Part shown: one piece after another, positions 30,762 through 48,605 of the stretch | Position numbering within the stretch: the first letter of the stretch is position 1 | Layout: each line of letters opens with the position of its first letter | Source of the DNA: Gluconobacter aidae | Lineage (GTDB): Bacteria; Pseudomonadota; Alphaproteobacteria; Acetobacterales; Acetobacteraceae | Direction: 5' to 3' | Assembly (NCBI RefSeq): GCF_009547075.1 | Contig: NZ_WIPH01000008.1 | Coordinates: forward strand, 1 to 64,000 | Length of the DNA stretch: 64,000 nucleotides | The notes under the pieces: generated by a model | Database searches by the model: none | What the model was told of the DNA's origin: nothing | What the model saw: the letters and a program-made list of their open reading frames with translations, nothing else | Made by a program: the position numbers and the translations under genes

Positions 30762-31151
30762 CACGCTCCTCACAGGAAACGCGTTCATTCTCCACCGCGC
30801 ACATGCACCGTTTCCTGATCCCGTCATAACCAAAGGTCGTACCATACTGAAATGCGGGTGCTTCCTTAATTGCCGGTCCTGAGCCAGTTTTCCCGATCAG
30901 TTCCGACCAAGGAGTCATGGCGGCGTCCGGGACAAGGGCTGATAACGGATTCAGCAGGGAGGGGGATGTGACAGTTTCATGAACCTCAACCTGTGGTTTT
31001 TCGCTCCCTTCTCCTATGACCACAGCGCTGATGCAGTCCGCACGACGCTCGCATACGCCTTTCGGATCTGAAATCAGGCAAAGGACGCAGAAAGTTTTCA
31101 CCCACGATCCGGAATTACTTTAGGCTCCGTCCTGAGAAGGAGAAATCAGTC
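30762..31151. other. 390-bp divergent spacer, no supported gene
   Basis: A 133-codon minus-strand frame here runs into the peroxidase signal-peptide region in another frame and has no family features, so it is not called. The stretch is the promoter region for the leftward peroxidase/phosphoesterase pair and the rightward 146-residue gene. A possible Pho box is noted separately. Confidence 0.6.
30968..30985 (-). promoter_or_regulatory. Possible Pho box upstream of phosphoesterase operon
   Basis: On the minus strand GGTTCAT-GAAA-CTGTCAC fits two 7-bp PhoB half-sites (consensus CTGTCAT) spaced by four bases. The second half matches 6 of 7 positions and the first 4 of 7. It lies 207 bp before the peroxidase start codon. 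Confidence 0.4.
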
Positions 31152-31592
31152 ATGGCCCAGTTGTCGATCGGTGATCGTGTTTCGGACCTGAAGGGCACGC
31201 ATGACGGCAGGCTGGTCGATATCGACGGCACCACCGGCTATGTGGAGCAGGCCAATGGCGTGGAGATCGAGTTTCCGCTGAGCCAGCTCAAGCCTTACGA
31301 GCCCCCGAAAATAGCGCAAGAGCGCACGCTCTCCGGCCCCCTGCGGGACCGGCTTCTGAATCCCGCGCAGAGAGCCCTTCTCGCCTCGGTCCCCGCCTCC
31401 CTCCTTGCCGCAATCGCCAAAAGCTACGATGCGGGCAGTGAGGGCCCGGGATCGCGGCCACCCTTCGCGGCACTTCCGGAGTCCAAACGCCTTGAGGCCA
31501 TCCGGATCTATCTGCCCACGCTGCCGCAGCGGCTTCTGGCGTCACACATGTCTCTGGTCGTAGCCATGCGCGATATTTCAAAACTCTCCTGA
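31152..31592 (+). CDS. Conserved hypothetical protein with small beta-barrel N-terminus
   Basis: A 146-residue cytoplasmic protein with no signal peptide. Residues 1-50 (IGDRVSDLKGTHDGRLVDIDGTTGYV...) read like a KOW/SH3-type small barrel as found in nucleic-acid-binding proteins. The rest is helical, with no motif I recognise. An AAGGAG site lies before the ATG. Function is unknown. It is followed by an RNA helicase on the same strand, separated by 127 bp. Confidence 0.75.
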   Translation: MAQLSIGDRVSDLKGTHDGRLVDIDGTTGYVEQANGVEIEFPLSQLKPYEPPKIAQERTLSGPLRDRLLNPAQRALLASVPASLLAAIAKSYDAGSEGPGSRPPFAALPESKRLEAIRIYLPTLPQRLLASHMSLVVAMRDISKLS

Positions 31593-31719
31593 CAAACCGG
31601 GCCGGCACGCTCTTTCATTACGTTGACCGCGGGCAGCATCATTCGTACAAGCCCGTTTTCTGAATCCGCGAAGCCCGATCAGGCGCAGCTCTACTCAGCG
31701 CCGGAGGCGCCGTTTCATC

Positions 31720-33048: not shown

Positions 33049-33214
33049 AAACCACGCCGGGCCAGCATAAAAACCGCAAGAATCCCGGGACAGGGGCCGG
33101 TCGCGCTTGACCTTTCGTCTGACAGTCCGCACATAGCGGGCTGGATTTTCTGGCTCCGCACCGGAGCCACTGCCGCGCGCAGATCATTACCCTGTCCCTG
33201 AAGCAAGGATTCAC

Positions 33215-33433
33215 ATGTCAAAAGAAGACCTGATCGAGTTTACCGGCACCGTCATGGAACTGCTCCCCAACGCCATGTTCCGCGTCACGCTCGACAACGA
33301 GCACACCATCCTCGCCCATACGAGCGGCAAGATGCGCAAGAACCGCATCCGCGTTCTGGCCGGTGACCGCGTCAACGTCGAAATGACGCCCTACGACCTG
33401 TCCAAGGGCCGGATCACGTTCCGATTCAAGTAA
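33215..33433 (+). CDS. infA: Translation initiation factor IF-1
   Basis: A 72-residue OB-fold protein that binds the ribosomal A site during initiation. The sequence [36 protein letters not shown] and SKGRITFR is fully typical. AAGGA precedes the ATG. It heads an infA-maf-RNase-yacG cluster on one strand. Confidence 0.97.
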
Positions 33434-33446
33434 GACAGTCCGCCGC

Positions 33447-34103
33447 ATGACCGCATCCCCGTCTTCCGCAGAAGGGTCATCCGGCCTTTTGGACCGTCCG
33501 AAGCTCGTTCTGGCCTCCGCCTCCCCGCGCCGCCTGAGCCTGCTGGAACAGATCGGCATCGTGCCCGACGCCGTCGTGAGCGCCGATATCGACGAAGAAC
33601 CGCGCCCCGGTGAACTGCCGCGTCCGCTCGCGCAGCGTCTCGCCCGCCAGAAGGCGGAGCATGTGGCCGCGCAGCGCACGGATGCGGCATTGGTCATCGG
33701 CGCGGATACCGTGGTTTCGGTCGGTCGGCGCATCCTGCCGAAAGCGGAAGATGAAAAGACGGCCCGTGCCTGCCTGAAGCTGCTGTCGGGCCGCCGCCAC
33801 AAGGTGCTGACGGCCGTGGTCCTGCGCCCGAGCGCGGGCTGGCCACAGGGCGCACCCTGCGAGCGGCTGGTGGAAACCTCCGTCATCTTCCATCGCCTGA
33901 CGGACGCGCAGATCGACGCCCTGATCGCGCAGGGGGACTGGAAGGGCAAGGCGGGCGGTTATGCCATCCAGGGCGCGGCGGCCGCCCATATCCGCCAGAT
34001 CGGCGGCAGCTATTCCGCCGTCGTGGGACTGCCCCTGTTTGAAACGGCCCAGCTCCTGCGCGGCCAGCCGGTCGGCAAGCCCTCAGGTGGCTGGATCGCA
34101 TGA
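33447..34103 (+). CDS. maf: Maf-family nucleoside triphosphate pyrophosphatase
   Basis: A 218-residue housecleaning pyrophosphatase acting on non-canonical or excess nucleotides such as dTTP, UTP or m7GTP. Motifs are LVLASASPRRLSLLEQIG, VIGADTVVS and GKAGGYAIQGAAAAHI. The 14-base gap from infA and the ATGA overlap with the next gene mark an operon. Confidence 0.94.
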   Translation: MTASPSSAEGSSGLLDRPKLVLASASPRRLSLLEQIGIVPDAVVSADIDEEPRPGELPRPLAQRLARQKAEHVAAQRTDAALVIGADTVVSVGRRILPKAEDEKTARACLKLLSGRRHKVLTAVVLRPSAGWPQGAPCERLVETSVIFHRLTDAQIDALIAQGDWKGKAGGYAIQGAAAAHIRQIGGSYSAVVGLPLFETAQLLRGQPVGKPSGGWIA

Positions 34104-35143
34104 CCGAAATCCGCGCAGCCTGTTCCCCGGGCGAAATGCGGATTGCCGTCACGGACCATGACACATTGCTGGATGCCGCGATCTGGCGTCCCGGCTGCCC
34201 GGATGGTCTGGAAGACTGGCATGTCGTCCGCGTCCAGAAAGCTGCTCCCGCCCTGGGGGGAGCGTTCGTCCTGCTCGAAGACGGCCAGAGCGGCTTTCTT
34301 TCCACCCGCGACACCCTGGTCGAAGGGGCTCTAACCGCAGCGCGTGTCAGCCGCGCCGCCCAGAACGGCAAGGGCCTGCGCCTGCGCCGGGCGGACATGC
34401 CCGTTGAAATCCCTTCCGGCCCCAAGCTGCTCGAACGCGGACCAACCCCGCTCGACGAACTGGCGGACCGCTATCCGGAGGCTCCGGTTTTCGTGGACGA
34501 TCCGGGCATTGCCGCAAAACTGCCCGTCCGGCTGCGTCCGCGCCTTCAGCGCTGCCAGCAGGCATTCGATGGCGCGCTTGAGGCCGATTTCGACAGTCTC
34601 GGCAGCCCCGAGGCCGATCTGGGGCTCCTGACCGCCAGCATTTTCCCGACCCCCGCCCTCGTCGCCATCGATCTCGACAGCACCGGCGCCCCGGACTTCA
34701 AGGGCAATGTCGCAGCCTTCCCCGAACTGGCCCGTCAGATCCGCCTGCGAAATCTTTCCGGCACGATTCTGTTAGACCCGGCGGGAGTGAAAACGCGCAA
34801 ACGCCCTGCCCTGATCCCCTTCCTGCGTGAGGCTCTGGCGGGCGATCCCCTGAAACCGGATGTCCTCGGCGCCACACCGTCCGGCCTGCTGGAACTGACG
34901 CGCCCGCGCCGCCGTCCCCCCTTGCATGAACTCCTGTCCTCCCCACATGGGCAGGCACTGTCCATCCTCAGGACGATCCTGCGCGAAAACCGCCCCGGCC
35001 GGACGCTGACCGCCTCGATCGGACTCGTCACGGCGCTGGAAAACGACCCCGACGCCCTGGCGGATTTCACATCCCGCCGCGCCCGGCCGCTGGACCTTGT
35101 CCTTGATCCCAATGCCCCACCCGCAAGCTGGAGCCTGTCATGA
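34100..35143 (+). CDS. Short RNase E/G-family protein
   Basis: A 347-residue member of the RNase E/G family, much shorter than RNase G (about 490) and lacking the zinc-link CPxCxG region and C-terminal part. A weak S1-like segment (GGAFVLLEDGQSGFL) is followed by the DNase-I-like core. Two aspartates in VAIDLDSTG and TILLDPAG correspond to the magnesium-binding pair of RNase E, so catalysis is possible. A maf-rng-yacG order is common in Rhodospirillales. Substrate range is unknown. Confidence 0.85.
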   Translation: MTEIRAACSPGEMRIAVTDHDTLLDAAIWRPGCPDGLEDWHVVRVQKAAPALGGAFVLLEDGQSGFLSTRDTLVEGALTAARVSRAAQNGKGLRLRRADMPVEIPSGPKLLERGPTPLDELADRYPEAPVFVDDPGIAAKLPVRLRPRLQRCQQAFDGALEADFDSLGSPEADLGLLTASIFPTPALVAIDLDSTGAPDFKGNVAAFPELARQIRLRNLSGTILLDPAGVKTRKRPALIPFLREALAGDPLKPDVLGATPSGLLELTRPRRRPPLHELLSSPHGQALSILRTILRENRPGRTLTASIGLVTALENDPDALADFTSRRARPLDLVLDPNAPPASWSLS

Positions 35144-35319
35144 GCAACGCCGCCTGCCCGATCTGCCATCGCCCCACCGACCCGCAGTTCCGGCCTTTCT
35201 GCTCCCGCCACTGTGCGGATGTCGATCTGGGCCGCTGGTTCAGCGGGACCTACCGCGTTCCGTCCTTCCGTCAGGACAATGATGAAGAACCGGACGAATA
35301 TCGCGACAGGGAGGGTTGA
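35140..35319 (+). CDS. yacG: DNA gyrase inhibitor YacG, zinc-binding
   Basis: A 59-residue protein with Cys6, Cys9, Cys21 and Cys25 as a C-x2-C...C-x3-C zinc finger (CPICHRP, FCSRHCADVDLGRW). E. coli YacG binds GyrB and inhibits gyrase. The ATG overlaps the RNase E/G stop, and the acidic tail (NDEEPDEYRD) is family-like. Confidence 0.93.
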   Translation: MSNAACPICHRPTDPQFRPFCSRHCADVDLGRWFSGTYRVPSFRQDNDEEPDEYRDREG

Positions 35320-35379
35320 TCCCGCCTCAATCATCAGTTAAACCCCATCTCCGCAACGGGGTCCGCCCTGAAGCTCGGT

Positions 35380-35455
35380 GCCCAAGTAGCTCAGTTGGTA
35401 GAGCATGCGACTGAAAATCGCAGTGTCGGTGGTTCGATTCCGCCCTTGGGCACCA
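35380..35455 (+). tRNA. tRNA-Phe (anticodon GAA)
   Basis: A 76-base tRNA with acceptor stem GCCCAAG/CTTGGGC and encoded ACCA end, D arm AGCTCAGTTGGTAGAGCA, anticodon loop CTGAAAA in a GCGA/TCGC stem, and T arm GTGG-TTCGATT-CCGC. Its last 16 bases are the attachment core used by the neighbouring integrated element; the tRNA stays intact. Confidence 0.97.
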
Positions 35456-36587
35456 CATCATTTCCGTTTCCTTTGAAATCAATACCTTGAGTGGCACTTT
35501 TGCCCCACTGGCTATTTTTGCCTGTTGAGTGGGACATTCCGCCTTCTACAATTCGGGCAAATGCGCGCTCGGCTAGACGCTTCTGATCGACGGCAAGCGT
35601 GTAGCGCTGGACCTCTTTCAGAGACCTATGGCCCGTCACCGCAGCAATCTCATGAGCAGTGCAGCCCATCTCGGCCAAACGAACCGCCGCCGCCTTCCTG
35701 AGTCCGTGTGACGAGCATTGCGGCAACCCCGCCGCATTGCACCAATCCCGAAATTTATTACCGAAACTCTCAGGAGTGTAAGGCTTGCCGCCTATTCCCT
35801 GAATGAACGTCTCTCCTGACATCGCGCCTGGCGTCGCCTCAATAATCCGCCGAAGTTCAGGGATCACCGGCAACGTCAGAAGCACCGGCTTGCGCTTGCC
35901 GTTTTTCACTTGCGTAAAAGTCAGCGAGCCGTTGCGCATATCTTTCATTCCAAGACGCACAGCATCGCTCCGGCGCTGGCCCGTATAGAACAGAACAGCA
36001 AAGGCCAGACGCGCAGGAGAGCCGATATGATAAAAGGCCTCGAACCTCTCAATTTCCGCCGCCGTCCAGCTATGAAAGCCTGTTCCGGCACTTGGAATAT
36101 AAGACACTTCTCGCGCCGGATTCTTGTCCAGCATTCCGCACTGTACGCCATATGCAAACAGCGCCCGCAACGCCTTGAGAATACCGTTTCCGGCCTCCGG
36201 CCGACCTGCTTTAGAATCTCGCAAAGCCGCGACATGCTTTGGCTGAAGAGTGCTGATTAAGAAAGCGCCACATCGCTCGCACAAATTGTCCAGAATGCCT
36301 CTACGAACATACTGAGTTCTTACGTCGAGCCGACCGAACACCGCCGACTGATAGTATTGGACGCACAGATCCCGAAGGCTTCCAGGAACCACCGTTTCCC
36401 GCCTTGAAGGAACAGGCTGGATCTCGCCTGCCATGGCACGCCGGTATTCTTCATCAAACTCTGGTGTGCCAAGCATCTGACGTAACCTGATCTTTCGATG
36501 ACCCGGACGCCGCAGATACAACCTTACATTTCCATGCCGATCCGTATCTTCTGAGAGATATTTGTAGTGTCGGACGACCTTCATCAT
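35391..36587 (-). CDS. int: Tyrosine recombinase (integrase) of the tRNA-Phe element
   Basis: A 398-residue phage-type integrase. The N-terminal arm and SAM-like domains are followed by the catalytic domain with Arg in LFYTGQRRSDAVRL, HGLRKAAAVRLAE (H-x-x-R), and GHRSLKEVQRYTLA with the nucleophilic Tyr. The stop codon lies inside tRNA-Phe: about the last 20 residues are antisense to the tRNA, so in the excised form the tail would change (see findings). The start is ATG 36587 or the adjacent codon; the frame opens at 36605. The AlpA-like gene overlaps it upstream. Confidence 0.93.
   Translation of the reverse strand: MMKVVRHYKYLSEDTDRHGNVRLYLRRPGHRKIRLRQMLGTPEFDEEYRRAMAGEIQPVPSRRETVVPGSLRDLCVQYYQSAVFGRLDVRTQYVRRGILDNLCERCGAFLISTLQPKHVAALRDSKAGRPEAGNGILKALRALFAYGVQCGMLDKNPAREVSYIPSAGTGFHSWTAAEIERFEAFYHIGSPARLAFAVLFYTGQRRSDAVRLGMKDMRNGSLTFTQVKNGKRKPVLLTLPVIPELRRIIEATPGAMSGETFIQGIGGKPYTPESFGNKFRDWCNAAGLPQCSSHGLRKAAAVRLAEMGCTAHEIAAVTGHRSLKEVQRYTLAVDQKRLAERAFARIVEGGMSHSTGKNSQWGKSATQGIDFKGNGNDVVPKGGIEPPTLRFSVACSTN
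35440..35455. repeat. Attachment site core, left copy (attL)
   Basis: CCGCCCTTGGGCACCA, the 3' end of tRNA-Phe, is repeated exactly at 44628-44643. It marks the left boundary of the 9.2-kb element. Confidence 0.93.
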
Positions 36588-36853
36588 TTCAGCACCGCAT
36601 CCCACTCATTACCGCCGTCAGACGGGCTTGCAGCACTATCGGTTTCCATCTTCACGCCGCTTAAACGCGCAGCAGAAGCCACAAGCGCCGGCCGGAACCA
36701 CAAGACAATCTTGCCGAAGCGAGCCGGGCGCGGCGCATGGCCTTCCTCGACCATCCGATCAAAGGTTGATTCACTCACCCCCCAGAACGCCGCCGCCGCG
36801 GATCGCCGGAGAAAAATAGGCACCAAACCGGGCGGGAGATGATCGTATTTCAC
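36584..36853 (-). CDS. AlpA-like helix-turn-helix protein / putative excisionase
   Basis: An 89-residue protein with a winged-helix MerR/AlpA-type DNA-binding core: FLRRSAAAAFWGVSESTFDRMVEEGHAPRP then FGKIVLWFRPAL. AlpA activates integrase or acts in excision in P4-type elements. It overlaps the portal gene stop (ATGA) upstream and the integrase start downstream, so it is in the same transcript as the capsid genes. Confidence 0.82.
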   Translation of the reverse strand: MKYDHLPPGLVPIFLRRSAAAAFWGVSESTFDRMVEEGHAPRPARFGKIVLWFRPALVASAARLSGVKMETDSAASPSDGGNEWDAVLK

Positions 36854-38178
36854 GCGCTTGCCCCTTCATTTTGATGCGTGCCAGGAGCCGGAAGACCGTC
36901 ACCAGTATGACCGGGTTTCGGCGCGAGAGATGGCATACCAGGCGCATCCGCAGGCCAGTTCGGTGCGCTACCCGTTCGCAATGCATCACCATCAGCATGC
37001 GAAGACAGGCCAACCGCGCTGCGTGCTTCATTGGCTGTCATGATGCCGCTCTGCACCTGAGCGCAGTTAGCCGCTGCCACCGCGCTATAATTGCCACGCA
37101 ATAGGCCGCCCATATCAATCAGAAGATGATACCCGGCAGGTAAGACCGCTTGGTCAAATTCAGCCTCAATCGCAGACACGATAGGCGCCAGCGTGAGCTG
37201 AGCGAAAGCCGCCAGATAAGGCGACAAATCCGCAGGAAGCCGGTCCCCTAATTGAATCAGAGGTTCTGGAACACGAAACAGACGGCAGATTTCAGCAACG
37301 CCAAATTGGCGGCTTGAAAGAAATTCCGCATCCGCGCTGTTCAAACTGGCCTGCTTAAACGACCATCCACCTTCGAGAAGTGGAACCTTGCCCGCGTTCA
37401 ATGCGCCGGAGTAATCTAGAAGAGATGCCTTAGCCAGCTTGCGCTGTTCGTCTGTTAGGTAGGAGGGCGACGATAGATAACCTGAAGGCCGCATCCCGTT
37501 GCGCCAGGTCTTTTCCGCTACCTTGGACATCTCAAGGCTTTCGCGCACGACACCAGCCGCCCGCGCCAGCACGCTTCGACCGATGAGGCCATTATCCGAC
37601 CGGGCCTTAATGTGAAGCACTTCCGTATCGAGCAGACGCGGCGGCAAACCTAGAAGCTGAGTTTCAGGCGTCGAGGTCACAAGGTCGAACACAAGCCGAG
37701 AATGCGCGCCTACACCAACGACTTGCGGACTAAGCCACGTCCAGGGAATAGGTGTGAGGCTGACGACAGCCCCACGCGCATCTTTCTTGATCCAAGAAAC
37801 GGAATTGCCCTGCATCTGCAAATCAGCGACGACCTGCATACAGAATGACGGCCAGCTTTGCCTTATGTTCGGGCGTGAGATCAGTTTGACGGCTGGCAAC
37901 GTGCCCTGAGCGGCCTGTCGTCCATCTTCAGCATCCGCGACGATAGAAGCAGGAAGGCTTGCAATCGACGCGGTTATGATTTCAAGGCAAGCAGTAACAG
38001 CGGACAGGCTTTCAGAGAGCCATGCAGGCACCGGACCATGCGCCGTCTGCGTCGCCCCCAAACCTACGCTCACAGAACCCCAGCCGTCAGAATACCGGCC
38101 TGAAACCCGGCTTTCTATCGACAAAACAGGTTCTTTCCGCGCACGACTCCGAGGCGTTGAATTCGTGAAAAAGCCCAT
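36850..38178 (-). CDS. HK97-family phage portal protein
   Basis: A 442-residue portal, the dodecameric ring through which DNA enters the capsid. Family traits are the stem/wing pattern with PAWLSESLSAVTACLEIIT, the QGNSVSWIKKDARGAVVSLTPI block, LHIKARSDNGLIGRSVLARAAGVV, and AEICRLFRVPEPLIQLGDRL. Length is normal. Its ATG overlaps the protease stop (TGATG-type junction at 38178). The C-terminal tail is Pro/Gly-rich. Confidence 0.92.
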   Translation of the reverse strand: MGFFTNSTPRSRARKEPVLSIESRVSGRYSDGWGSVSVGLGATQTAHGPVPAWLSESLSAVTACLEIITASIASLPASIVADAEDGRQAAQGTLPAVKLISRPNIRQSWPSFCMQVVADLQMQGNSVSWIKKDARGAVVSLTPIPWTWLSPQVVGVGAHSRLVFDLVTSTPETQLLGLPPRLLDTEVLHIKARSDNGLIGRSVLARAAGVVRESLEMSKVAEKTWRNGMRPSGYLSSPSYLTDEQRKLAKASLLDYSGALNAGKVPLLEGGWSFKQASLNSADAEFLSSRQFGVAEICRLFRVPEPLIQLGDRLPADLSPYLAAFAQLTLAPIVSAIEAEFDQAVLPAGYHLLIDMGGLLRGNYSAVAAANCAQVQSGIMTANEARSAVGLSSHADGDALRTGSAPNWPADAPGMPSLAPKPGHTGDGLPAPGTHQNEGASA

Positions 38179-38720
38179 TACAGCCTCAACATCGTCAGAA
38201 CGCGGTCCCGGTATCGCTCTACCTGGTAAATCTCACCAAGCGGACGACTACGCGGCTCCACGAAAGTTTCGGCATAGGCGGGATGCGAAGAGATGATGGA
38301 AATCTCGTGCAGCCGCGCCCCGTGAATGATCCGGGTTTCTCGCCCGTGCCATTCGTCAACAGCATCAGAAAAGCCAATGCTTACGCCGCCAAGATCGCCA
38401 CGCTTGGCCATGGCATGCACATCCCGGCCACGTTCGGTATCTGGCAGATCAAGAGCAAAGTGCAGCCCATCGGCCCGGTCTTCGAGTTGCAAGGTGCCAG
38501 AGCGCGTGCGCCCTAACAGCTTGGCAGCATCATGATCCTGCAACGCCAGAATGTCCTGACCATCGCAGGCCGACCGGAGCGCATGGGCTGTAAATCGTTC
38601 GGAGAAATTGCCGATCTGCGCGGGCTTGTCATAAGGCACCGCCAGACCCCGGAGAGTAAGGCCATTTCCGGCAGGCGTCACACCTGCCGAAAAGCGCATT
38701 TCCATTATCCCGCGCGGCAT
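38178..38720 (-). CDS. HK97-family prohead protease
   Basis: A 180-residue U35-type serine protease that trims the capsid scaffold domain. Visible are the barrel start TLRGLAVPYDKPAQIGNFSERF, the His of LALQDHDAAKLLGRT, the nucleophile region LGGVSIGFSDA, and LHEISIISSHPAY. It lies four bases after the major capsid gene in transcription order and overlaps the portal gene. ATG 38720 is followed by other possible starts a few codons on. Confidence 0.92.
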   Translation of the reverse strand: MPRGIMEMRFSAGVTPAGNGLTLRGLAVPYDKPAQIGNFSERFTAHALRSACDGQDILALQDHDAAKLLGRTRSGTLQLEDRADGLHFALDLPDTERGRDVHAMAKRGDLGGVSIGFSDAVDEWHGRETRIIHGARLHEISIISSHPAYAETFVEPRSRPLGEIYQVERYRDRVLTMLRL

Positions 38721-38723
38721 GGA

Positions 38724-39968
38724 TCAGCCCCCAACCGCAGCTTTAGGGGTAAGAGTCGAGAATGCCTGCGGACGGCGAACCGCCACATCGGCGCTCTGGA
38801 TCACCCGGATCTGCACGTTGCCGCGCTGGAAGGCTTCGGACGCATATGGATTGACCAGGATTTCCACGACACCCCACATGCCGATCAGGAGGTTCGTCCA
38901 ATCACCCAGGACAAGAGAACCGGCCGGAACGTTGGTGCTCCATTGTGCAGGTAGGCCCGCCAGCGTTCCATCATCCATGATGAACCCAGCACCGACCGAC
39001 GCAGCCTTCGGAGTCGCCATTAAGGATGCGCGAACACCTGCACCAATCGCCCACCCATTCGGCACCGCATTGGCCGTTTCCAGATCCGTTAGGCGGGCAA
39101 GAATTTCCGGCCAGGACAAACTTCCTGCCGTGTAATCGGCATTATGTGCAGCCTGCGGAATGACACCTTTAGGTGTGAAATTGGTGCCGTCACCTGCCAA
39201 GGCCGCAGCATCCAGCGCCTGCGCCATGACTGCCAACAGATCAGATTGGACCAGTTCCTGAGCGGCGGGGCTGGAAAGCATCAGCGTATTTCGGCTGATT
39301 TCAGCGATTGATCCGCATGTCTTCGGACTCATGACGATGCCGTCATAGGTCGGATTTCCCGCAGGAAGAGGCTGGTTTTCCCCAACCCATGCCGCCTGCG
39401 CCGCAGCCGTCTGGCGGGGAATTCCGATATTGCCGGAAAGGCCATCCAGCACGACCGCGCCAAGCTGTTGTGTAATCAGGCGCGCCCGCAGAAGGCTGAC
39501 GAACTGGTCCGGGCGCTGTTGTGTCGGGATCAGGCTCGCAGCTTCACCAGCAGTCCCCTGAGCACCAGTCGTCAGCGTTGCTCGGGTTTCCAGATTAGGC
39601 GTGAGGTCCACCAGAATGCCGCCTGCCTGCGGCTTCTGGCCTGTACGACGCTCGATCTCGGCAGACATTTCACGCGCACGCCCGGTCCGATCATCATCCG
39701 TGATCCCGCGCACCTGGGCACGGACCGCATCGACCAGAGTGAAGCTGTTGCGCGCCCGCTGGTAATGAGCATCGCCAGACAGCGAAACACCCGGTGCCGA
39801 ACGCGCTAGATCGTCCAAGGCGCGTTGACGGGTTTCACGGGCCTTGAGCGCATTGGCTTCCGTTTCCAGGTCAGACCAACGCTTGTCGATCTCCGGGCCG
39901 CTCTGGCCCTTGATCGCTTCCATGTCCGCCAAAACGGCGGAAAGAGTGCGGGTTGCAGAGCTATTCAT
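38724..39968 (-). CDS. HK97-fold major capsid protein
   Basis: A 414-residue capsid subunit. Residues 1-100 are a charged helical delta (scaffold) domain (SDLETEANALKARETRQRAL) likely removed by the adjacent protease. The mature fold begins near ETRATLTTGAQGTAGEAASLIP and includes VVLDGLSGNIGIPRQTAA, EISRNTLMLSSPAAQELVQSDL and ALDAAALAGDGTNFTPKGV, standard for the Phage_capsid family. It is the second gene of the leftward capsid transcript. Confidence 0.93.
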   Translation of the reverse strand: MNSSATRTLSAVLADMEAIKGQSGPEIDKRWSDLETEANALKARETRQRALDDLARSAPGVSLSGDAHYQRARNSFTLVDAVRAQVRGITDDDRTGRAREMSAEIERRTGQKPQAGGILVDLTPNLETRATLTTGAQGTAGEAASLIPTQQRPDQFVSLLRARLITQQLGAVVLDGLSGNIGIPRQTAAAQAAWVGENQPLPAGNPTYDGIVMSPKTCGSIAEISRNTLMLSSPAAQELVQSDLLAVMAQALDAAALAGDGTNFTPKGVIPQAAHNADYTAGSLSWPEILARLTDLETANAVPNGWAIGAGVRASLMATPKAASVGAGFIMDDGTLAGLPAQWSTNVPAGSLVLGDWTNLLIGMWGVVEILVNPYASEAFQRGNVQIRVIQSADVAVRRPQAFSTLTPKAAVGG

Positions 39969-40537
39969 GCCACACCGCCAACATCGTGAGAGTGAGGGCC
40001 AACATTCGCTTCCAGCGCCTCGTCCATACGCTGCACAACGGCATGCACGTTGATAACGTGGAAAGCGTTGAGAGCCGACACGTCTTGCTCACCGGCAGCG
40101 GCAGCTAGTTCCAAGTCAGAGAGACCAGCCAGCACCGAGGCTGTTTCAGAACCATCGAAATGGACCAGATACGTGCGACGGCCGCCCTTGAGCAGTTCCC
40201 CAGGCACGAAGCCGGGAAGCGGACCAATTTCGGAACGTCCGACATAGGCAAAGCCAGCAGCAACCTTTGCCGCGAGAGCCACGGGCATGCCGAGGCGCTG
40301 CCCTTCGGCCACAAGACCCGTCTGGATAGCCTGACGCCGTGAGAAAATGATCGCGCCGCCACGGCCAGAAGTTTCTTTCTGGTCCAGATCGGCAAAGATG
40401 ATGTTGTCTTCTCGTTTGACCCAGCCAAGCAGAGTACCGCGAGAAATCTTAGCGCCCGCGCATAGATGAGGCAGGCGGTAGAGATGTTCGTCATTATCGA
40501 CAGACATTGAGCGTCCTTTCAGGTGGAGGTTATTCAT
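39965..40537 (-). CDS. Helix-turn-helix protein preceding the capsid gene
   Basis: A 190-residue protein with an N-terminal MerR-like helix-turn-helix (LPHLCAGAKISRGTLLGWVKRE, then SRRQAIQTGLVAEGQRLGM) and an alpha/beta second half (GRRTYLVHFDGSETASVLAGL). The stop overlaps the capsid gene start (ATGA). I do not recognise a characterised family. It may regulate the capsid operon, or replace the small terminase as a DNA-binding packaging factor; neither is shown. ATG 40537 or Met11 at 40507 could start translation. Confidence 0.75.
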   Translation of the reverse strand: MNNLHLKGRSMSVDNDEHLYRLPHLCAGAKISRGTLLGWVKREDNIIFADLDQKETSGRGGAIIFSRRQAIQTGLVAEGQRLGMPVALAAKVAAGFAYVGRSEIGPLPGFVPGELLKGGRRTYLVHFDGSETASVLAGLSDLELAAAAGEQDVSALNAFHVINVHAVVQRMDEALEANVGPHSHDVGGVA

Positions 40538-40601
40538 CCGATAACTTTTTCGGTTTATCGTGAACCCAAACCTAAAAACAAGAACAAAGGTGGGACATTC
40601 G

Positions 40602-41030
40602 TCAGACCGTCAGCAGGTCGCGCAAAATAGAGGCCGTCAGGCTTTCATCCCAATATTCGCTCTCGACAGATGGTGGATCGCCATCCCAGACCGTGAGTGC
40701 GTGAGCCTTTGCTTTAAGTCCCGTAACGCTCCTTGATTTGGTCCGTACAATTTCTCGCAAAAGCGGACCTTGAGCGGCAATGATCGGCGCTAGCGCGGTA
40801 TCTTGAGCGTTGTCATCACCCTGAATTGCATACACGACCTCGTGAAAGGCTTGATCAAGTCGAAGGAACTCGCTGCACAGCGCAATCAGATGCGCGTCCG
40901 ATTTATGACCTTCCGGCTTCGCAGGTGCGGCGGACAGGCTTTCGGGATTTGCGAGGGATGCGGTAGCGATGCCGCCAAGCAGGACGGTCCCGAGGGCCGG
41001 GAAAATGTCACGGCGATTTACTGAGCGCAT
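40602..41030 (-). CDS. Exported protein of unknown function in the element
   Basis: A 142-residue protein with a twin-arginine-like export signal (NRRDIFPALGTVLLGGIATASLA). The mature part is helical with DAHLIALCSEFLRLDQAFHEVVYA and VTGLKAKAHALTVWDG. Similar small exported proteins occur on phage-like islands of alphaproteobacteria, as I recall, but no function is established. The frame opens at 41087; ATG 41030 is chosen for the signal peptide. It is probably cotranscribed with the downstream capsid genes (64-bp gap). Confidence 0.7.
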   Translation of the reverse strand: MRSVNRRDIFPALGTVLLGGIATASLANPESLSAAPAKPEGHKSDAHLIALCSEFLRLDQAFHEVVYAIQGDDNAQDTALAPIIAAQGPLLREIVRTKSRSVTGLKAKAHALTVWDGDPPSVESEYWDESLTASILRDLLTV

Positions 41031-41289
41031 GATATGCGGCTCCTGTAGCTTTCGTTGCCGAAAATACCTGCTGTTGAAGGCAAGCACTCCGGGGGTTCAA
41101 CACCTGGCTACAGTCAGGCCGGTAGGGCTTTAAGGTTGCCCTCTGGACATACCCCTAACGCCCCCGGAGCGAATTTATTTTGCGGATTAAGGCGTCCGTG
41201 CCATGCCCGCTGTAGCCATTCATGGAGTGTTGAAGCTCCTCTTGCACCGTGCCAACCTAACTTCAAACTGTCAATCAAAAGGTAAGGCC

Positions 41290-41910
41290 ATGCAAAAAGT
41301 TCAGGTCGCTAGAAGCCTACTCGGTACAGCTCTAGACCTTTTTATCCAAGACCTTGATCCAATCTCAGTGCATTCTCTGGCTTGTGGAGGATGTGAAATA
41401 ATTGAAGGACTCGCCACTCACGAACAAAGAAACTCTTTTTCATCTCAAATGATAGACGCAAACCCTCAACTGACATTGCGAAATTTTCGAACACAAAGGG
41501 GATCAATATGGAACGCATTCAAACATATTACACAACTAGACCGAAAAACATTACGTGACGATAAATCTATACTTGAGAGTTTTTCAGATAAAGAAAATGA
41601 CGCCGTTTTATTAACAGGATGGCTTGATTACGCTGAATACAATAAATCTCTACCAAAAGAAGCTAAAGTTTTTATACTGTGGTTCTATTCAATAAACAAA
41701 GAACACTTGGATAAAGAATTATTTGAAACAATAATTAGAAATTCTGAATTTTTGTTTCCACAAATTAACAGAAAACCGCGAAAAGAGCAAAAAAACATAC
41801 TTTTCGATAAATGCTCGGAAATTTCAGACCCGTTTAACGCTATTAAATACTTAAAAGGATTTAATGTAATATCTGAAACAATCCCCCTTTCTTCAGAAAC
41901 TCAATATTGA
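41290..41910 (+). CDS. AT-rich accessory gene, uncharacterised protein
   Basis: A 206-residue cytoplasmic protein on the strand opposite to every other element gene, with far lower GC and many A/T-ending codons, so it was probably acquired separately. Segments that stand out are ISVHSLACGGCEIIEGL, SIWNAFKHIT (with a conserved-looking W-N-A-F-K-H), ENDAVLLTGWLDYAEY and KEAKVFILWFYSI. From memory these resemble a group of uncharacterised alphaproteobacterial proteins. There is no signal peptide or TM segment, and no catalytic motif I can name. ATG 41290 follows AAGGTAAGG; the frame opens at 41203. Confidence 0.72.
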   Translation: MQKVQVARSLLGTALDLFIQDLDPISVHSLACGGCEIIEGLATHEQRNSFSSQMIDANPQLTLRNFRTQRGSIWNAFKHITQLDRKTLRDDKSILESFSDKENDAVLLTGWLDYAEYNKSLPKEAKVFILWFYSINKEHLDKELFETIIRNSEFLFPQINRKPRKEQKNILFDKCSEISDPFNAIKYLKGFNVISETIPLSSETQY

Positions 41911-42017
41911 ATTTTTGATTTATTTGATTGTTTTCAAAGATCTGCAAAAAATCCACGCGTGAGCCTGACGCGGTGCCGGTGCCCGCCCCTCGGTCATTGC
42001 TCACCCTCCCCCCGTTT

Positions 42018-42371
42018 TCAGTGCCCGGTCCGAATTCTGCGCGCCAGGCGACGGATGCCCCAGACTGCATCCGCTTTCGCCAGGTGAAAGGCTTCCGGGT
42101 TTCGATGGCCAGGCAGAAGCCGACAAACGGCCTCTGCAATCGCGTCTAATTCATCGCCTTGTGTCGGATGTGTCGGATGTGTCGGATTTTCCCTATAACC
42201 CTTATATGCGCGCACGCGTGTAGGGCGATAATAGGTTTTATCCGACACATCCGACACACGTGACACACCATCCAATGAAAAACGGCGGTTTCCCGTCATT
42301 TCTTCATTTCGTTCTTGTGTCGCATCGACTTTCTTTGTGCTGGGCTGCATCATGGTTATTGATCCGCCCAC
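42018..42371 (-). CDS. Doubtful small protein after the primase
   Basis: A 117-codon frame whose start overlaps the primase stop. Its middle translates an iteron palindrome into VSDVSD and PTHPTHPT, a sign that DNA constraints shape this stretch. The C-terminal part (AIAEAVCRLLPGHRNPEAFHLAKADAVWGIRRLARRIR) looks more protein-like. Either a real small gene overlaps an origin, or the frame is fortuitous. Confidence 0.4.
   Translation of the reverse strand: MGGSITMMQPSTKKVDATQERNEEMTGNRRFSLDGVSRVSDVSDKTYYRPTRVRAYKGYRENPTHPTHPTQGDELDAIAEAVCRLLPGHRNPEAFHLAKADAVWGIRRLARRIRTGH
42162..42265. repeat. Iteron palindrome, possible replication origin of the element
   Basis: Three tandem 9-mers TGTCGGATG/T at 42162-42188 face two inverted copies CATCCGACA and ATCCGACA at 42240-42256, plus a degenerate CACGTGACA at 42257-42265. 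The arms enclose about 50 bp with an AT-rich part (CCCTATAACCCTTATAT). It lies about 90-190 bp beyond the primase gene end, the sort of position where P4-type replication proteins have binding sites. Confidence 0.6.
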
Positions 42372-44512
42372 GACATCGGTTTGACTTCCAAACCACGAAA
42401 ACCGCGTTGACCGCGTGCTCCTTTTGGGTTGCGACAGAGAACAAACCCACGCTTCTGCAAAGCAGAACTGAACCGCTTTGCGGACCCGATCTCTTCCCCC
42501 GAACGCTTGGCGAATTCAGACCAACTGGCAAACAGTGCCTGCGTCGTGTCCTCATGCTCTGGCGATACATTGCAGGCTGTATCGAGCCACTGACCAAGCA
42601 CGTCCTGCTCTGAGAAGTATTCCGCCGTAGCATCCACGACAGCACGCGGACGGACCAAGCCATTCATCTGCCAGTCATACGCGCCCTCAATCATCCAGCG
42701 CAGAATTGCAGGCCATTCATCACGCAGCCTTGCCTCAAGACGCGGATCAGGCATTTCTGGCCTTCGTTCAAAGCCGAGAATGTTGAACCGCCGCCGCATG
42801 GCTTCATCGACCGTGTGCAGGATCGGTTTATGATTCCCGACGATCATCAGCTTGAAGGTAGGCCGGTACTGAAAGAAGTCCTGACGCATGAAGCGTGCCG
42901 TGATCGTATCGCCGCCCGTCAGCTGTTTGATCCGTGCTTCAGCCCATGGGCGACCTTCTTCGGTTTCGGAAGCCGTCACCAGACGCGCACCACGCAACAT
43001 AGCCAGATCCGTAGGGTGACGATCCACGCCAGAAGCAACGAACGTCTCCATCGCCGCATTGCTCGCATAATCACCGAGGATGCCTGCAACGGTATTGATA
43101 AACACTGACTTACCGTTTCCACCTGGGCCATAAATGAACAGCAGCGCGTGTTCCCTAGTATCGCCCGTTAGGCAGTAGCCACACCAGGCACGCAGAAAGC
43201 GGATCATCTCATGGTCACCGCCTGTCGCATCAAACAGAAAGCGGTCCCAGATCGGACAATTTGGCTGTTCTGCTGGTCGCACAGCAACATGCCGTGTGAT
43301 ATAATCTTCCTGACGTGCTGTTCTTGATTGCGTAGTACGGAGGTCAACGGTTCCGTCAGGCGTGCCAAGCAAGAGCGGATCGGTGTCCCAGATCGCGGAA
43401 GTTACCGCAAAGGCGCGTGCAGTCTGAGCAAAAGTCTCGACACCTCTTGCCGCACTTGCACGCGCCATGATCGCCGCAGTCTTTCCATCCGAATTTGACG
43501 ACACCAACTCACGGGCAATCGTTCGGCACCAGTGATAGGCCAGCCGGGTTTCTTCACGCTTCCAATGAGAGCCAGCCCATTCAAACCATGCCCCGACATT
43601 ATGATCGTAGCGCAGTTGGTCTGCGAACCGGGCTTCAAAAGCCAATGCAATGCCGTCTTCTGTCGGTGGGAATGCTGAAATATCCACCTGAGCAGCAGGA
43701 GCCTTTTGCTCGACCTTATCCGCCAGCCTCTGCAATTCCTGAGCCGTGCCGCCTTTCCGCAGCCAGTCCACAACATCGCCTTTGATCGGCAGATCAGGCA
43801 GCGTGAGCACGCGCAGACGCTCAACCAGCCCTGACAGAGACTTGCAAACCTCGTCTGCATGCTTCCGGCCGGGATCATCATTATCCGGCATGACGACCAC
43901 GCTCGCACCCTTCAAGGCCGTGCCGTAATCATCATTCCACTTTCCAGCGCCACCAGGCGAACAGGTTGCCGTCAGGCCGATAGCTTCCAGAGCATGCACG
44001 CTCTTTTCGCCTTCGACGATCCAGACAGTTTCTCCCGCTTCCATGGCCTGCAAGACACGCGGAAGACGATAGAGAACGCGCTTTGCACCCTTAGCGCCCC
44101 ATTTCCAGCCGCCTCGACCGTCAGGGGTCTGCTGTCGGAAGTCCTTTGGCTCAAGCCGGACGACACGAAACAAGACTTCTCCATCCGCCGACACATAGGC
44201 GTAATTTTCGACCACGCGAGGCTTCGAGCGCGGCTGTTGGTCCCGTTCAGGCAAAAACCCACCGTCTCGCAGCCACTTTGCCGCTGCTGACTTGTCCAAG
44301 GACTTTTGCCGCATGACCAGTTCGATCATGCCGCCGCCAGTCCCGCTTTCATGGTCCTGCCAGACGCCCTTCTGCACATCGACAGCGAGGCTACCCCGTG
44401 AGCCGAAGCGCAACTCCTGAGGTTTGGAGAGCTTCCGATTCGGGCCACCTAAAAGAGCCAGCGCAACATCTCTGGCGTTCGCTTGAAAAGGCGAACTTTG
44501 AACGCTGTTCAT
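42356..44512 (-). CDS. P4/D5-type primase-helicase
   Basis: A 718-residue replication protein. The N-terminal region resembles a primase zinc/DNA-binding part without obvious cysteines (GVWQDHESGTGGGMIELVM). A Toprim-like domain starts near residue 160 (VWIVEGEKSVHALEAIG, then VVMPDNDDPGRKHA). A D5-N region follows, then an SF3 helicase with the P-loop GPGGNGKS at about 461-468, and a C-terminal winged-helix part. Such proteins prime and unwind DNA for autonomous replication of satellites and phages. It is the rightmost element gene, 115 bp from the attachment core, transcribed toward the integrase. Confidence 0.92.
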   Translation of the reverse strand: MNSVQSSPFQANARDVALALLGGPNRKLSKPQELRFGSRGSLAVDVQKGVWQDHESGTGGGMIELVMRQKSLDKSAAAKWLRDGGFLPERDQQPRSKPRVVENYAYVSADGEVLFRVVRLEPKDFRQQTPDGRGGWKWGAKGAKRVLYRLPRVLQAMEAGETVWIVEGEKSVHALEAIGLTATCSPGGAGKWNDDYGTALKGASVVVMPDNDDPGRKHADEVCKSLSGLVERLRVLTLPDLPIKGDVVDWLRKGGTAQELQRLADKVEQKAPAAQVDISAFPPTEDGIALAFEARFADQLRYDHNVGAWFEWAGSHWKREETRLAYHWCRTIARELVSSNSDGKTAAIMARASAARGVETFAQTARAFAVTSAIWDTDPLLLGTPDGTVDLRTTQSRTARQEDYITRHVAVRPAEQPNCPIWDRFLFDATGGDHEMIRFLRAWCGYCLTGDTREHALLFIYGPGGNGKSVFINTVAGILGDYASNAAMETFVASGVDRHPTDLAMLRGARLVTASETEEGRPWAEARIKQLTGGDTITARFMRQDFFQYRPTFKLMIVGNHKPILHTVDEAMRRRFNILGFERRPEMPDPRLEARLRDEWPAILRWMIEGAYDWQMNGLVRPRAVVDATAEYFSEQDVLGQWLDTACNVSPEHEDTTQALFASWSEFAKRSGEEIGSAKRFSSALQKRGFVLCRNPKGARGQRGFRGLEVKPMSWADQ

Positions 44513-44627
44513 CTCCGCCTTCCGATCAAAAAAGGTGAGACAAACAGAAGAGAATTTTCAATAGAAGCGCAGGAAGAAAGATCGCCCACTCTCGAATAAC
44601 TATTTGATTTTGGGGCCTTTATCGAGG

Positions 44628-44643
44628 CCGCCCTTGGGCACCA
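44628..44643. repeat. Attachment site core, right copy (attR)
   Basis: Exact repeat of the 16-base tRNA-Phe 3' end. The flanking bases differ from the left copy, so the core is 16 bp. Confidence 0.9.
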
Positions 44644-44906
44644 TTTACACATCCGCCAGAGTGCGGGAAAGCCTGAAAATCCCCAGAAATCAGCCAATGT
44701 TGTTTCCGCCCATGTGCGGTGACAGACAGCGACAGGCTGTGTCTTCTGGTCACACCCGTCCATCCAGACCGCTGACCGGTAAAGGGAACACGAATTGTCC
44801 CTTGAGATGTGCATCCGAACCGGGGTCGGAGGCGTTGTCTCTTCAGACGTCAGTCCGCCACCGGCTCTCCCGGGGGGACTGACTATGAAAACAGACAGAA
44901 GGTTTC
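44644..44906. other. Right chromosomal flank of the element, no gene seen
   Basis: This would lie directly downstream of tRNA-Phe in the empty site. Short frames exist, but none has family features or a good ribosome-binding site. It may hold the tRNA transcript end and the promoter for the next gene. Confidence 0.5.
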
Positions 44907-45371
44907 ATGATGTCTTTCAATATCAGCCGCCGTGGTCTTGCCCTCGCCACCGCTCTTTTCGGAGCCGGTCTTGTCGCAACCCCCGCCGTCCGCGCTGAAG
45001 ATACGCTTGGCGCCCCGGTCGGACACATCACGCTTGCCGCTCATTCGGCGGATATCGGCGTTGGCTATACCTGGGGTGACGGAACCCTGACCTATGGCCA
45101 TCACACCTATCATTTCAAGGTCAGCGGCGGGAACATCGCCGCTGTCGGCTACTCCGCCCTGAAGGCCGAAGGCACCGTCTACAACCTGAAGCACCTGCAT
45201 GATTTCGACGGCAGCTACGGCTCCCTCGCTGGGGAAGCGACGCTGGACAAGGGTCTGGGCGGCGCGGTCCTGTCCAACAGCAACGGCGTGCGCATCAAGA
45301 TCGAGACGGCGACGAAAGGGGCACGTCTGGCGGCGGGTGCGCAGGGTCTGACCTTTACGCTGAGCCGGTAA
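44907..45371 (+). CDS. Exported beta-rich protein, possibly DUF1134/EipA-like
   Basis: A 154-residue protein with a signal peptide carrying a twin-arginine-like start (ISRRGLALATALFGAGLVATPAVRA). The mature domain is glycine-rich and beta-type: HITLAAHSADIGVGYTWGDG, YHFKVSGGNIAAVGYSALKA, ASYGSL-like turns and AVLSNSNGVRIKIETATKG. It may be related to DUF1134 proteins (Brucella EipA, envelope integrity), but this is a weak impression. Translation may begin at either of two adjacent ATGs (44907 or 44910). Confidence 0.7.
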   Translation: MMSFNISRRGLALATALFGAGLVATPAVRAEDTLGAPVGHITLAAHSADIGVGYTWGDGTLTYGHHTYHFKVSGGNIAAVGYSALKAEGTVYNLKHLHDFDGSYGSLAGEATLDKGLGGAVLSNSNGVRIKIETATKGARLAAGAQGLTFTLSR

Positions 45372-45387
45372 TCTGGTGTCCTCCTGC

Positions 45388-45412
45388 CGCAGCCTTCCGG
45401 GAAGGCTGCGGT
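45388..45412 (+). terminator. Perfect inverted repeat, likely terminator
   Basis: CCGCAGCCTTCC and GGAAGGCTGCGG flank a single G, giving a very stable hairpin 16 bases after the stop codon. The T tract is absent, so it may act in mRNA stability or Rho-assisted termination. Confidence 0.6.
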
Positions 45413-45485
45413 GACAGGCCGGACACTCCCCCGCGTGCCCGGCTCTTCCTGCATTTTTTCGCGGGGGAGCGGAGCGTGACAGATC

Positions 45486-46115
45486 ATGGATACCAATATT
45501 CTTGTTCTCTCCTTTACCGAGCAGAGCAAGGCCTTCCAGGCGTTTTCCGAACTGCGGGAACGGGCTGCGGACCAGAAGCTGGTCGTCATCAACGAGGCCG
45601 TCGTTGAGCGCGATACGGCAGGCAACCTCACTGTTCACGATAACTGGGCCAACGGCTCTTCCGGCGAGCAGGTTCTGAACGGAACGCTTCTGGGTTCACT
45701 CGTCGGGCTTCTTCTGGGACCGCTGGGCGTGCTGCTCGGGGCGTCGATGGGCGCTCTCGTAGGGTCCAGCCTCTCGGTCGAGGACGCGGCGATCCGCAAA
45801 AGCCTTCTGGCGCAGATCGCATCCGTCATTCCCGTGGGGACGACGGCCGTGATCGCGACGGTTCAGGAATATGTGCCGCAGGTCGTGGACGATCTGGCGG
45901 CGTCGCTGGGCGCATCGCTGGTGCTGCGTCGGCCGATCGAGGCCGTGGAGCGCGAGGTTCTGGTCCAGCAGAAGGCCCAGGCCGCCGCGGCAGCCGAAGC
46001 CGAGCGTGTTCTCGTGCAGCAGCATTCGACCGAATGGCACGAACGCATCAGCGAGTGGCAGAAGCAGGTTTCGACCAGCCTTCACAATCTGAAGAACAGG
46101 ATCACGGGCGGCTGA
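45486..46115 (+). CDS. DUF1269-family membrane-associated protein
   Basis: A 209-residue protein with an N-terminal alpha/beta domain (MDTNILVLSFTEQSKAFQAFSELRE), a glycine-rich hydrophobic hairpin at about residues 70-98 (GSLVGLLLGPLGVLLGASMGALVG) and a long Ala/Gln/Glu helical C-terminus. This is the DUF1269 layout, with a hairpin like glycine-zipper proteins. The function of the family is not established; it is often stress-related. Likely monocistronic. Confidence 0.85.
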   Translation: MDTNILVLSFTEQSKAFQAFSELRERAADQKLVVINEAVVERDTAGNLTVHDNWANGSSGEQVLNGTLLGSLVGLLLGPLGVLLGASMGALVGSSLSVEDAAIRKSLLAQIASVIPVGTTAVIATVQEYVPQVVDDLAASLGASLVLRRPIEAVEREVLVQQKAQAAAAAEAERVLVQQHSTEWHERISEWQKQVSTSLHNLKNRITGG

Positions 46116-46187
46116 GACCGTTACGCTCTTGATCTGAGCCTATGATGCGGGCCATCGTGACGAAACATTCCCTTGCAGGATGTCGTC

Positions 46188-46560
46188 ATGATGGCCCGTT
46201 TTCGTATGCTTTTCCTGCTGGCCGGTCTGAGCACGTTTTCAGCAGCGTCCGCCGCTCTTGCGCCACCAGCCGTTCTGGCGCCGTTTATTCATGACGGCAG
46301 TTTCGTGCCCGGCGATTACGGGTTTGTCCGGGGTGCTTTCTGGTACAGCACGCAGATGTTGATCCGGTTTTTCAGGTCATGGCGCTTCGTCAGCTTGAGC
46401 CGTTTGCACGGTCGGGTCAGTTTCCGAAACAGGAATATGCGCTACTGACGGACCGGGTCATGCTGGCGACGACCGGAAAGCAGCATTATGGCTCCCAGCT
46501 TTCATGTCAGAACCACCATTATGCGCCCTATTCTCTGGATGCGGGCGGGTGCAGGGCAGC
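46188..46560 (+). pseudogene. Broken DUF6624-like exported protein
   Basis: An N-terminal part with signal peptide (FLLAGLSTFSAASAALA) and FIHDGSFVPGDYGFVRGAF reads in one frame to about 46340. The continuation LVQHADVDPVFQ, then EYALLTDRVMLATTGKQHYG and SQLSCQNHHYAPYSLD, reads in another frame. Together they match the DUF6624 pattern (QHAD-x-D-x-x-FQ ... LLTDRV ... YGTQ). A frameshift near 46340 and a degraded 3' end after 46530 indicate a pseudogene, unless the frameshift is a sequencing error. Confidence 0.7.
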
Positions 46561-46568
46561 GCCCCGCC

Positions 46569-48509: not shown

Positions 48510-48605
48510 GGCGGACAGGATACATGAGACGTCCGTTTTCAAAAGAGCGGGCGTGAGCCGGGGCAGCACGTTGCATGTCCGGCCCGGATACGGACATAGT
48601 GCGGC

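Follow-up and report, generated by a model that had tools for sequence, protein, structure and literature searches.

Gene content and boundaries of the element

The sequence analyzed here, referred to as the window, is a stretch of 64,000 nucleotides (nt) of Gluconobacter aidae (assembly GCF_009547075.1, contig NZ_WIPH01000008.1, positions 1 to 64,000), the coordinates of which are used throughout. It contains a compact element at positions 35456-44643 that encodes the proteins of an HK97-type phage head together with a replication module, and among whose ten proteins no terminase was found. The element is situated at the 3' end of a tRNA-Phe gene with the anticodon GAA (35380..35455, + strand; ARAGORN), which furnishes its attachment site. 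Repeat comparison recovered a 16-bp direct repeat, CCGCCCTTGGGCACCA, with its left copy (attL core, 35440-35455) formed by the final 16 bases of the tRNA gene and its right copy (attR core) at 44628-44643, giving a repeat-to-repeat length of 9,188 bp (~9.2 kb). These boundaries bear out the original prediction of a 9.2-kb element at this tRNA with 16-bp repeats.

Sequence profile analysis identified a block of overlapping or nearly overlapping genes on the - strand that begins with a tyrosine integrase gene (int; 404 amino acids (aa), 35391..36605; PF00589 E 4e-19, phrog_1 E 2e-36), the open reading frame (ORF) of which extends across attL into the tRNA-Phe gene. It is followed by a gene for an AlpA/excisionase-like helix-turn-helix (HTH) protein (89 aa, 36584..36853), recognized by weak PHROG matches only (phrog_25900 E 7e-6, phrog_66 E 4e-4), a Pfam scan of it having returned no matches. 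The next three genes encode an HK97-type portal protein (442 aa, 36850..38178; PF04860 E 2e-64, TIGR01537 above cut-off), an HK97 prohead protease (180 aa, 38178..38720; PF04586 E 8e-31, TIGR01543 above cut-off) and an HK97 major capsid protein (414 aa, 38724..39968; PF05065 E 3e-31, phrog_617 E 3e-67). The capsid gene overlaps by 4 bp the last gene of the block, which encodes a MerR/CvkR-like HTH protein of 190 aa (g190; 39965..40537). Further along are a gene for a 161-aa protein (g161; 40602..41087, - strand) and one for a 235-aa protein (41203..41910), the latter being the only + strand gene of the element, with a GC content of 36% as against 54-61% in the other element genes measured. The remaining genes code for a P4/D5-type primase-helicase (718 aa, 42356..44512, - strand; PF08706 (D5_N) E 6e-25, TIGR01613 (P4-family primase) E 6e-83, phrog_6088 E 3e-144) and, downstream of it, a 117-aa protein (g117; 42018..42371, - strand), the ORF of which is only weakly constrained as a coding sequence. 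The original prediction had named the integrase, AlpA-like, portal, protease, capsid and primase-helicase genes, all of which were recovered by Pfam, PHROG or NCBIfam, the AlpA-like one with the qualification given above. It had also stated that all genes appear intact and overlap: the ORFs are indeed intact, and overlap holds for the block from int to the HTH gene and for the primase gene and its neighbor, but not around the 161-aa and 235-aa genes, which are flanked by gaps.

None of the ten proteins gave a Pfam, PHROG or NCBIfam match to a terminase, connector, tail or lysis protein, and there was likewise no family match to a small terminase subunit (TerS) or an HNH protein among them. A tblastn search of window positions 30000-50000 with three large terminase subunit (TerL) proteins from relatives of the element also returned no matches. 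The predicted absence of terminase, tail and lysis genes agrees with these results.

A family of capsid-encoding elements at tRNA genes

Searches with the capsid protein matched 33 of 299 Acetobacteraceae genomes, and a capsid profile matched 47 of 397 genomes at the family level and 49 of 395 at the order level, with all matches listed being from Acetobacteraceae; these counts include ordinary prophages. The loci compared below are the better matches of the Acetobacteraceae capsid searches. Direct repeats at a tRNA 3' end were found in 13 of the 14 elements tried, which are ~9.0-10.9 kb in length and occupy tRNA-Phe, Asn, Ala, Thr, Gly and Ser genes; a larger comparison of 23 stretches added tRNA-Glu and lengths up to 11.3 kb. 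Repeats bound 17 of these 23 stretches, among which L040 and L191 show the most divergent layouts; the other six (L036, L188-L190, L194, L196) are cut or have no detected repeat. A second set of 100 contigs was drawn from IMG/VR by capsid similarity (the best 80 of 171 contigs from a capsid-alignment scan and 20 from two further scans), many of them partial. The order capsid-protease-portal seen in the window is found in 90 of the 92 IMG/VR contigs that hold all three genes, the exceptions being L157, with a portal gene split across the contig ends, and L166, with two elements. L166 at first sight resembled tandem copies, but these are two different family members that adjoin each other and are 69% identical over ~850 bases. 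In contrast, eight prophage loci of the same genomes (L045, L047, L048, L065, L066, L068-L070) are ordered TerL-portal-capsid. The IMG/VR contig L108 shows no difference from the window across 9,122 bp, and was for this reason dropped as independent support.

A further common feature is an array of inverted iterons adjoining the end of the primase gene. In the window this array of TGTGTCGGA repeats (42160..42267; exact arms of 19 nt, loop of 61 nt) exceeds 100 of 100 shuffles. In regions chosen by hand where the primase gene ends, the same layout was recovered in 17 of 18 elements tried (the window and 16 of 17 others, the exception being L180), with exact arms of 13-30 nt separated by loops of 47-118 nt, and each of the 17 arrays beats all 100 of its own shuffles. 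The repeat sequences vary by lineage, and the layout is common to elements with and without TerL. By analogy with P4, the array is likely to be the replication origin, used by the primase-helicase of the element itself. Alternatively, it may be a packaging site.

These elements form a family, 9-11 kb in length, whose members occupy tRNA ends in Acetobacteraceae genomes and recur in many IMG/VR contigs; it is marked by the capsid-protease-portal order and the inverted iterons that follow the primase gene. The same gene set that the original prediction proposed to look for at tRNA genes of other Acetobacteraceae does occur there, both with and without a terminase.

Occurrence in Gluconobacter and at the tRNA-Phe site

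Within Gluconobacter, a capsid match with E <= 0.001 was found in 5 of 26 genomes, of which two gave close matches, at 100% and 99% identity; the other three (L068-L070) lie in ordinary prophages with TerL. A scan of genome contigs recovered one relative, that of G. thailandicus (G218), which is the nearest relative known from these searches, with a 99% identical capsid and an intact copy that also lacks TerL (L031). Near-identity searches of phages and plasmids recovered no relative of the element, the plasmid matches being to the tRNA only. The original prediction had raised two ways in which the satellite reading could fail, namely derivation by deletion from a full-length prophage at this site and the existence of decayed homologs only. 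Neither pattern was seen. In six of the 24 element-free Gluconobacter genomes, those in which the flank was resolved, no integrase separates the tRNA from the host right flank, which begins ~0.4-0.7 kb away. In another genus, this tRNA-Phe site carries not full prophages but TerL-bearing versions of the same small satellite (L061-L064). The integrases of the latter are 69-73% identical to that of the window and their capsids only ~27% identical. The G. thailandicus copy is intact, and one decayed family member with a stop in its capsid gene (L033) was also encountered. Another Gluconobacter genome (G307) has pieces of a broken related integrase at the same tRNA-Phe gene (L096, ~930-1250), likely the remnant of an earlier element.

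Presence and absence of the large terminase subunit

TerL is present in 9 of the 17 repeat-bounded genomic elements (L037, L038, L046, L061-L064, L193, L195), and both TerL and HNH are absent from the remaining 8 (the window, L031, L032, L034, L035, L040, L191, L192). An HNH gene accompanies TerL in all 9 of the former and in none of the latter, and 5 of the 9 additionally match a gp6-like connector profile, with a PF05135 match in L064; examples checked against Pfam or PHROG bore out the TerL, HNH and connector calls. The TerL-bearing relatives, with this HNH-(connector)-TerL cassette, resemble capsid-forming phage-inducible chromosomal islands (cf-PICIs). By comparison of positions, the slot of the cassette is occupied in the window by the low-GC 235-aa gene.

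Among the IMG/VR contigs TerL was found in 53 of 100, many of which are partial. The 12 contigs with both primase and integrase are divided equally between those with and those without TerL (L108 being among the latter), and the five with terminal direct repeats of 97-127 bases include two with TerL (L143, L214) and three without (L131, L157, L159). These three TerL-less contigs are 10.0-10.6 kb in length and the family profile found no integrase in them; they may be non-integrating satellites in circular or packaged form. L159 encodes a head-tail adaptor, and L157 a terminase small subunit (PF05119 E 7e-19) without a large subunit. The possibility that L157 merely has a broken TerL gene was discarded, since a six-frame reading of the gap yielded an HTH gene and the small terminase, and no recognizable TerL. 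TerL-less relatives also carry cargo, such as a Mom-like DNA modification protein (L131, 305-1279) and a PemK/MazF-like toxin domain (L130, 4438-5370).

The combined capsid, portal and protease were used to build a tree for 47 selected elements, of which 29 have TerL and 18 do not. This tree requires 5 changes of the TerL label as against a mean of 14.7 under shuffling, with none of 500 shuffles as low. Its well-supported branches require at least 3 such changes, and a single TerL-less clade is rejected by the approximately unbiased (AU) test on a quick tree (p 0.0038). The window, L031, L032 and L109, all without TerL, group with full support. As the label is clustered and yet changes several times, with one TerL-less clade rejected, the TerL state has been long inherited and has changed more than once, in a tree that cannot separate loss from gain.

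Selection and divergence of the head and replication genes

In the comparison of the window with G. thailandicus, the ratio of nonsynonymous to synonymous divergence (dN/dS) is 0.040 for the capsid, 0.053 for the portal, 0.050 for the HTH gene, 0.135 for the primase and 0.081 for int; it is 0.22 for the protease, with few changes, 0.30 for alpA, 0.43 for g161 and 0.87 for g117. Against the copy in another genus (L032), with synonymous sites near saturation, the values are 0.080 for the portal and 0.082 for the capsid. The capsid and portal are thus under purifying selection (dN/dS 0.04-0.08).

Synonymous divergence (dS) between the two Gluconobacter species is 0.07 for the protease, 0.19 for the capsid, 0.22 for the primase, 0.41 for the HTH gene and 0.46 for the portal, whereas the host genes beside the site give 1.39 (maf) and 1.51 (rng). 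In contrast, int (2.28) and alpA (0.69) are older than this core. Given that the core is far less diverged than maf and rng, with the integration genes older, these values indicate that a core of head and replication genes has moved or been exchanged between the two species and become attached to different integration modules. Another instance of a head module with different integration ends is offered by the genome G372, where a TerL-less head module with 97-98% DNA identity occurs at three places (L189, L190, L196), two of them at different tRNAs, with differing integrase ends.

The same data bear on the state of the TerL-less copy. The purifying selection on capsid and portal, and a core divergence far below that of the two flanking host genes, suggest that it does not look like a wreck. 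Both copies used for comparison (L031, L032) also lack TerL, and therefore the portal was held under constraint while no motor was encoded in cis. Portals serve as the docking point of motor and tail, and the constraint on this one in elements without TerL is therefore our main argument for a motor supplied in trans.

Small, regulatory and accessory genes

Its place next to the capsid gene, and its conservation combined with diversity, led to g190 being considered as a Nu1-like small terminase; 61 relatives were found across the loci searched, in elements with and without TerL. This candidate was downgraded: its profile best matches the MerR-type chain 7xn2 (E 1.4e-7), with CarH, GlnR and CueR weaker, and a terminase small subunit at only E 0.63. 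An AlphaFold2 model built from 38 sequences (pLDDT 79.5, pTM 0.78) gave in Foldseek a sole match below E 0.001, again 7xn2, the MerR-type CvkR (E 3.2e-4, TM 0.53/0.65). CvkR controls CRISPR-associated transposons. On the strength of its profile and modeled fold, g190 is more probably a regulator of the element than a small terminase.

The g161 protein has relatives in several family members and no match in Pfam, PHROG, NCBIfam or PADLOC. By eye, the N-terminus of this family-wide protein (window 40602-41087) is Tat-signal-like, which is odd within a head operon; perhaps it is an envelope protein, for example one acting in exclusion. For the 235-aa gene, Pfam, NCBIfam and PADLOC gave no match, and a single PHROG match (E 0.012) was to a family of unknown function. 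The idea that slot genes are defense genes was dropped, a PADLOC scan having given no match.

Proposed packaging by a foreign motor and its alternatives

Together, these observations lead us to regard it as fairly probable that the element is a mobile satellite of phages with genes for a head of its own, which would be filled by the terminase of a helper rather than by a motor of its own. The capsid-forming-satellite reading of the original prediction is thereby supported, and to it are added a large family, a TerL presence that changed more than once and TerL-bearing members resembling cf-PICIs. In this scenario, induction of or infection by a helper phage would trigger excision by Int and the AlpA-like protein, and the element would replicate from the iterons with its own primase-helicase. 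Its capsid, protease and portal would build small proheads, onto whose portal the helper terminase would dock and pump in satellite DNA through a recognized site, the connector and tail being taken from the helper. Consistent with this are the recurrence of the TerL-less state (8/17 genomic elements; 6/12 and 3/5 of the two IMG/VR groups), the tracking of TerL by HNH, the iterons in both kinds of elements, the small subunit without a large one in L157 and the presence of other TerL genes in the host genome. By extension, the chances are about even that this is a widespread, undescribed family of 9-11-kb capsid-making elements in which the motor is an optional cassette, with several long motor-less lineages filled by the terminases of other phages.

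However, several points weigh against this interpretation. The fit of another phage's motor to the portal of the element is an assumption, and the helper, packaging site, excision and particle are all inferred, the element being known from sequence alone. In int, alpA, g161 and g117, the recent divergence or the tight constraint typical of the core is missing (int dS 2.28; dN/dS of g161 0.43 and of g117 0.87), and the yardstick of host divergence consists of two genes only. Further, the L032 primase aligns only to residues 276-717, and the window copy has no recognizable TerS or connector.

A rather unlikely alternative is that the element descends by deletion from a capsid-forming satellite with TerL and is now stranded, the cassette having been lost and the remaining genes decaying or hitchhiking. 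The TerL-bearing relatives at the same tRNA-Phe with similar integrases, the filling of the slot by unrelated low-GC genes and the existence of decayed members such as L033 would all fit such an origin. Yet the ORFs are intact in both the window and G. thailandicus, the low capsid and portal dN/dS was obtained among TerL-less copies only, the divergence between the species is young and there are TerL-less groups on the tree. A recent deletion from L061-L064 in particular is contradicted by their capsids being only ~27% identical to that of the window. Somewhat less likely still, the head proteins might remain unpackaged, as decoys or poisons of helper head assembly, with the element moving in helper capsids or otherwise. 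Known satellites do interfere with helper capsids, according to PMC10690885 and PMC10945586, and the missing TerL and connector would suit a decoy; against this, the complete set of portal, protease and capsid has been kept, the portal is under selection and the TerL-bearing members of the family, which have HNH, connector and TerL, look able to package themselves.

If the motor does come from a helper, the host genomes offer candidates. No TerL of phrog_9 or PF20441 was found in the host genome of the window; its TerL genes are on two contigs, C24 and C93. On C93, which is 5.4 kb long, a TerL ORF is preceded, by eye, by a small-terminase-like ORF (L208 3592-5276, G000); it belongs to another prophage, which is a candidate helper. 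The C24 locus (L079 10319-19605 into L210, G000; L080/L212, G218:C177) encodes TerS, TerL, portal, scaffold, capsid, tail sheath and further proteins, its genes being collinear in both species, and lies beside genes that by eye are trpB-, accD-, folC- and dnaB-like. This contractile-phage-like locus, the TerL of which was found in 26 of 26 Gluconobacter genomes, may be a fixed prophage, a tailocin or a gene transfer agent. Elsewhere, two TerL genes were found in G. thailandicus, a single one split into two pieces in the host of L032 and one in the host of L034/L035. According to PMC8566455, the particles induced from acetic acid bacteria by mitomycin C were all myovirus-like. A specific form of the helper interpretation, in which the motor is that of the C24 locus, present in all 26 Gluconobacter genomes searched, and not of a visiting phage, draws on the retention and collinearity of its packaging, head and sheath genes. 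It is nevertheless improbable, as its portal matches PHROG families other than those of the element's portal, the host has a second TerL on C93, and TerL-less elements occur in other genera too, the search for the locus having covered Gluconobacter. Finally, a terminase of an unrecognized kind among the 161-, 235- and 117-aa proteins, which have no family-based function, is very improbable, because none of them has the length that an ATPase-nuclease motor requires, TerL-bearing members have g117 and g161 as well, and g190 resembles MerR-type regulators.

Comparison with known satellites

The literature searched, with subscription papers and bioRxiv largely outside it, contained no phage satellite in Acetobacteraceae and none described as lacking a terminase; under the same limits, a search on satellites, capsid and terminase in Alphaproteobacteria returned only the Streptomyces satellite paper PMC10690885. 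Were the proposed mechanism to hold, motors and portals of different systems would routinely cooperate in nature. The natural pairs of motor-bearing and motor-lacking elements allow one to ask what lets a terminase accept a foreign portal and how far dependence shifts. The element also bears on the minimum size of a capsid-making genome, and the Acetobacteraceae are the hosts used in vinegar and cellulose production.

P4-like satellites have no capsid genes, the helper capsid being remodeled by Sid. The element shares with them a size of ~10 kb, a P4/D5-type primase-helicase (TIGR01613 E 6e-83), an AlpA-like protein, tRNA insertion and, presumably, the need for a foreign terminase, and departs from them in having its own capsid, protease and portal genes, whereas P4 remodels P2 capsids (PMC10690885). 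With classical PICIs and the Staphylococcus aureus pathogenicity islands (SaPIs) it has in common a tRNA-type insertion, an integrase, a primase and, presumably, packaging by a foreign motor, but these steal or remodel the helper capsid and the element makes its own. The phage-inducible chromosomal minimalist islands (PICMIs) of Vibrionaceae are similarly very small, with a reduced gene content, an integrase and an AlpA-like gene; unlike the element, with its tRNA-Phe site and capsid genes, they insert beside fis, encode no capsid and are packaged as concatemers into the capsids of the helper (PMC10803314). MulchRoom and MiniFlayer, satellites of Streptomyces phages, also encode their own capsids, and according to PMC10690885 have TerS and TerL genes and no obvious replicase, which is the reverse of the element.

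The cf-PICIs come closest, sharing with the element an integrase, an AlpA-type protein, a primase, an HK97-type capsid, protease and portal of their own, and no tail genes, none having been found in the window element. The TerL-bearing relatives add to this HNH, TerL and often a gp6-like connector. Members of the cf-PICIs are induced by a helper phage that also supplies their tails, as would be the case for the element under the proposed mechanism. The Klebsiella record MK433583 was rejected as a cf-PICI, as it has tail genes. The cf-PICI definition in PMC10690885 includes terminase, HNH and connector, and the window element is without all three, neither TerL nor TerS having been found in it. 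It is also smaller (9.2 kb, against a cf-PICI average of 14 kb in PMC10803314), its head genes follow the order capsid-protease-portal, and its Gluconobacter host group is outside the cf-PICI host list in that same paper. Judging by its gene content, the element most likely works like a cf-PICI, while departing from that definition in the terminase and connector. Known satellites either steal or remodel the capsid of a helper, or make both capsid and motor; the family described here would represent a recurrent state in between, with a head of its own and a foreign motor.

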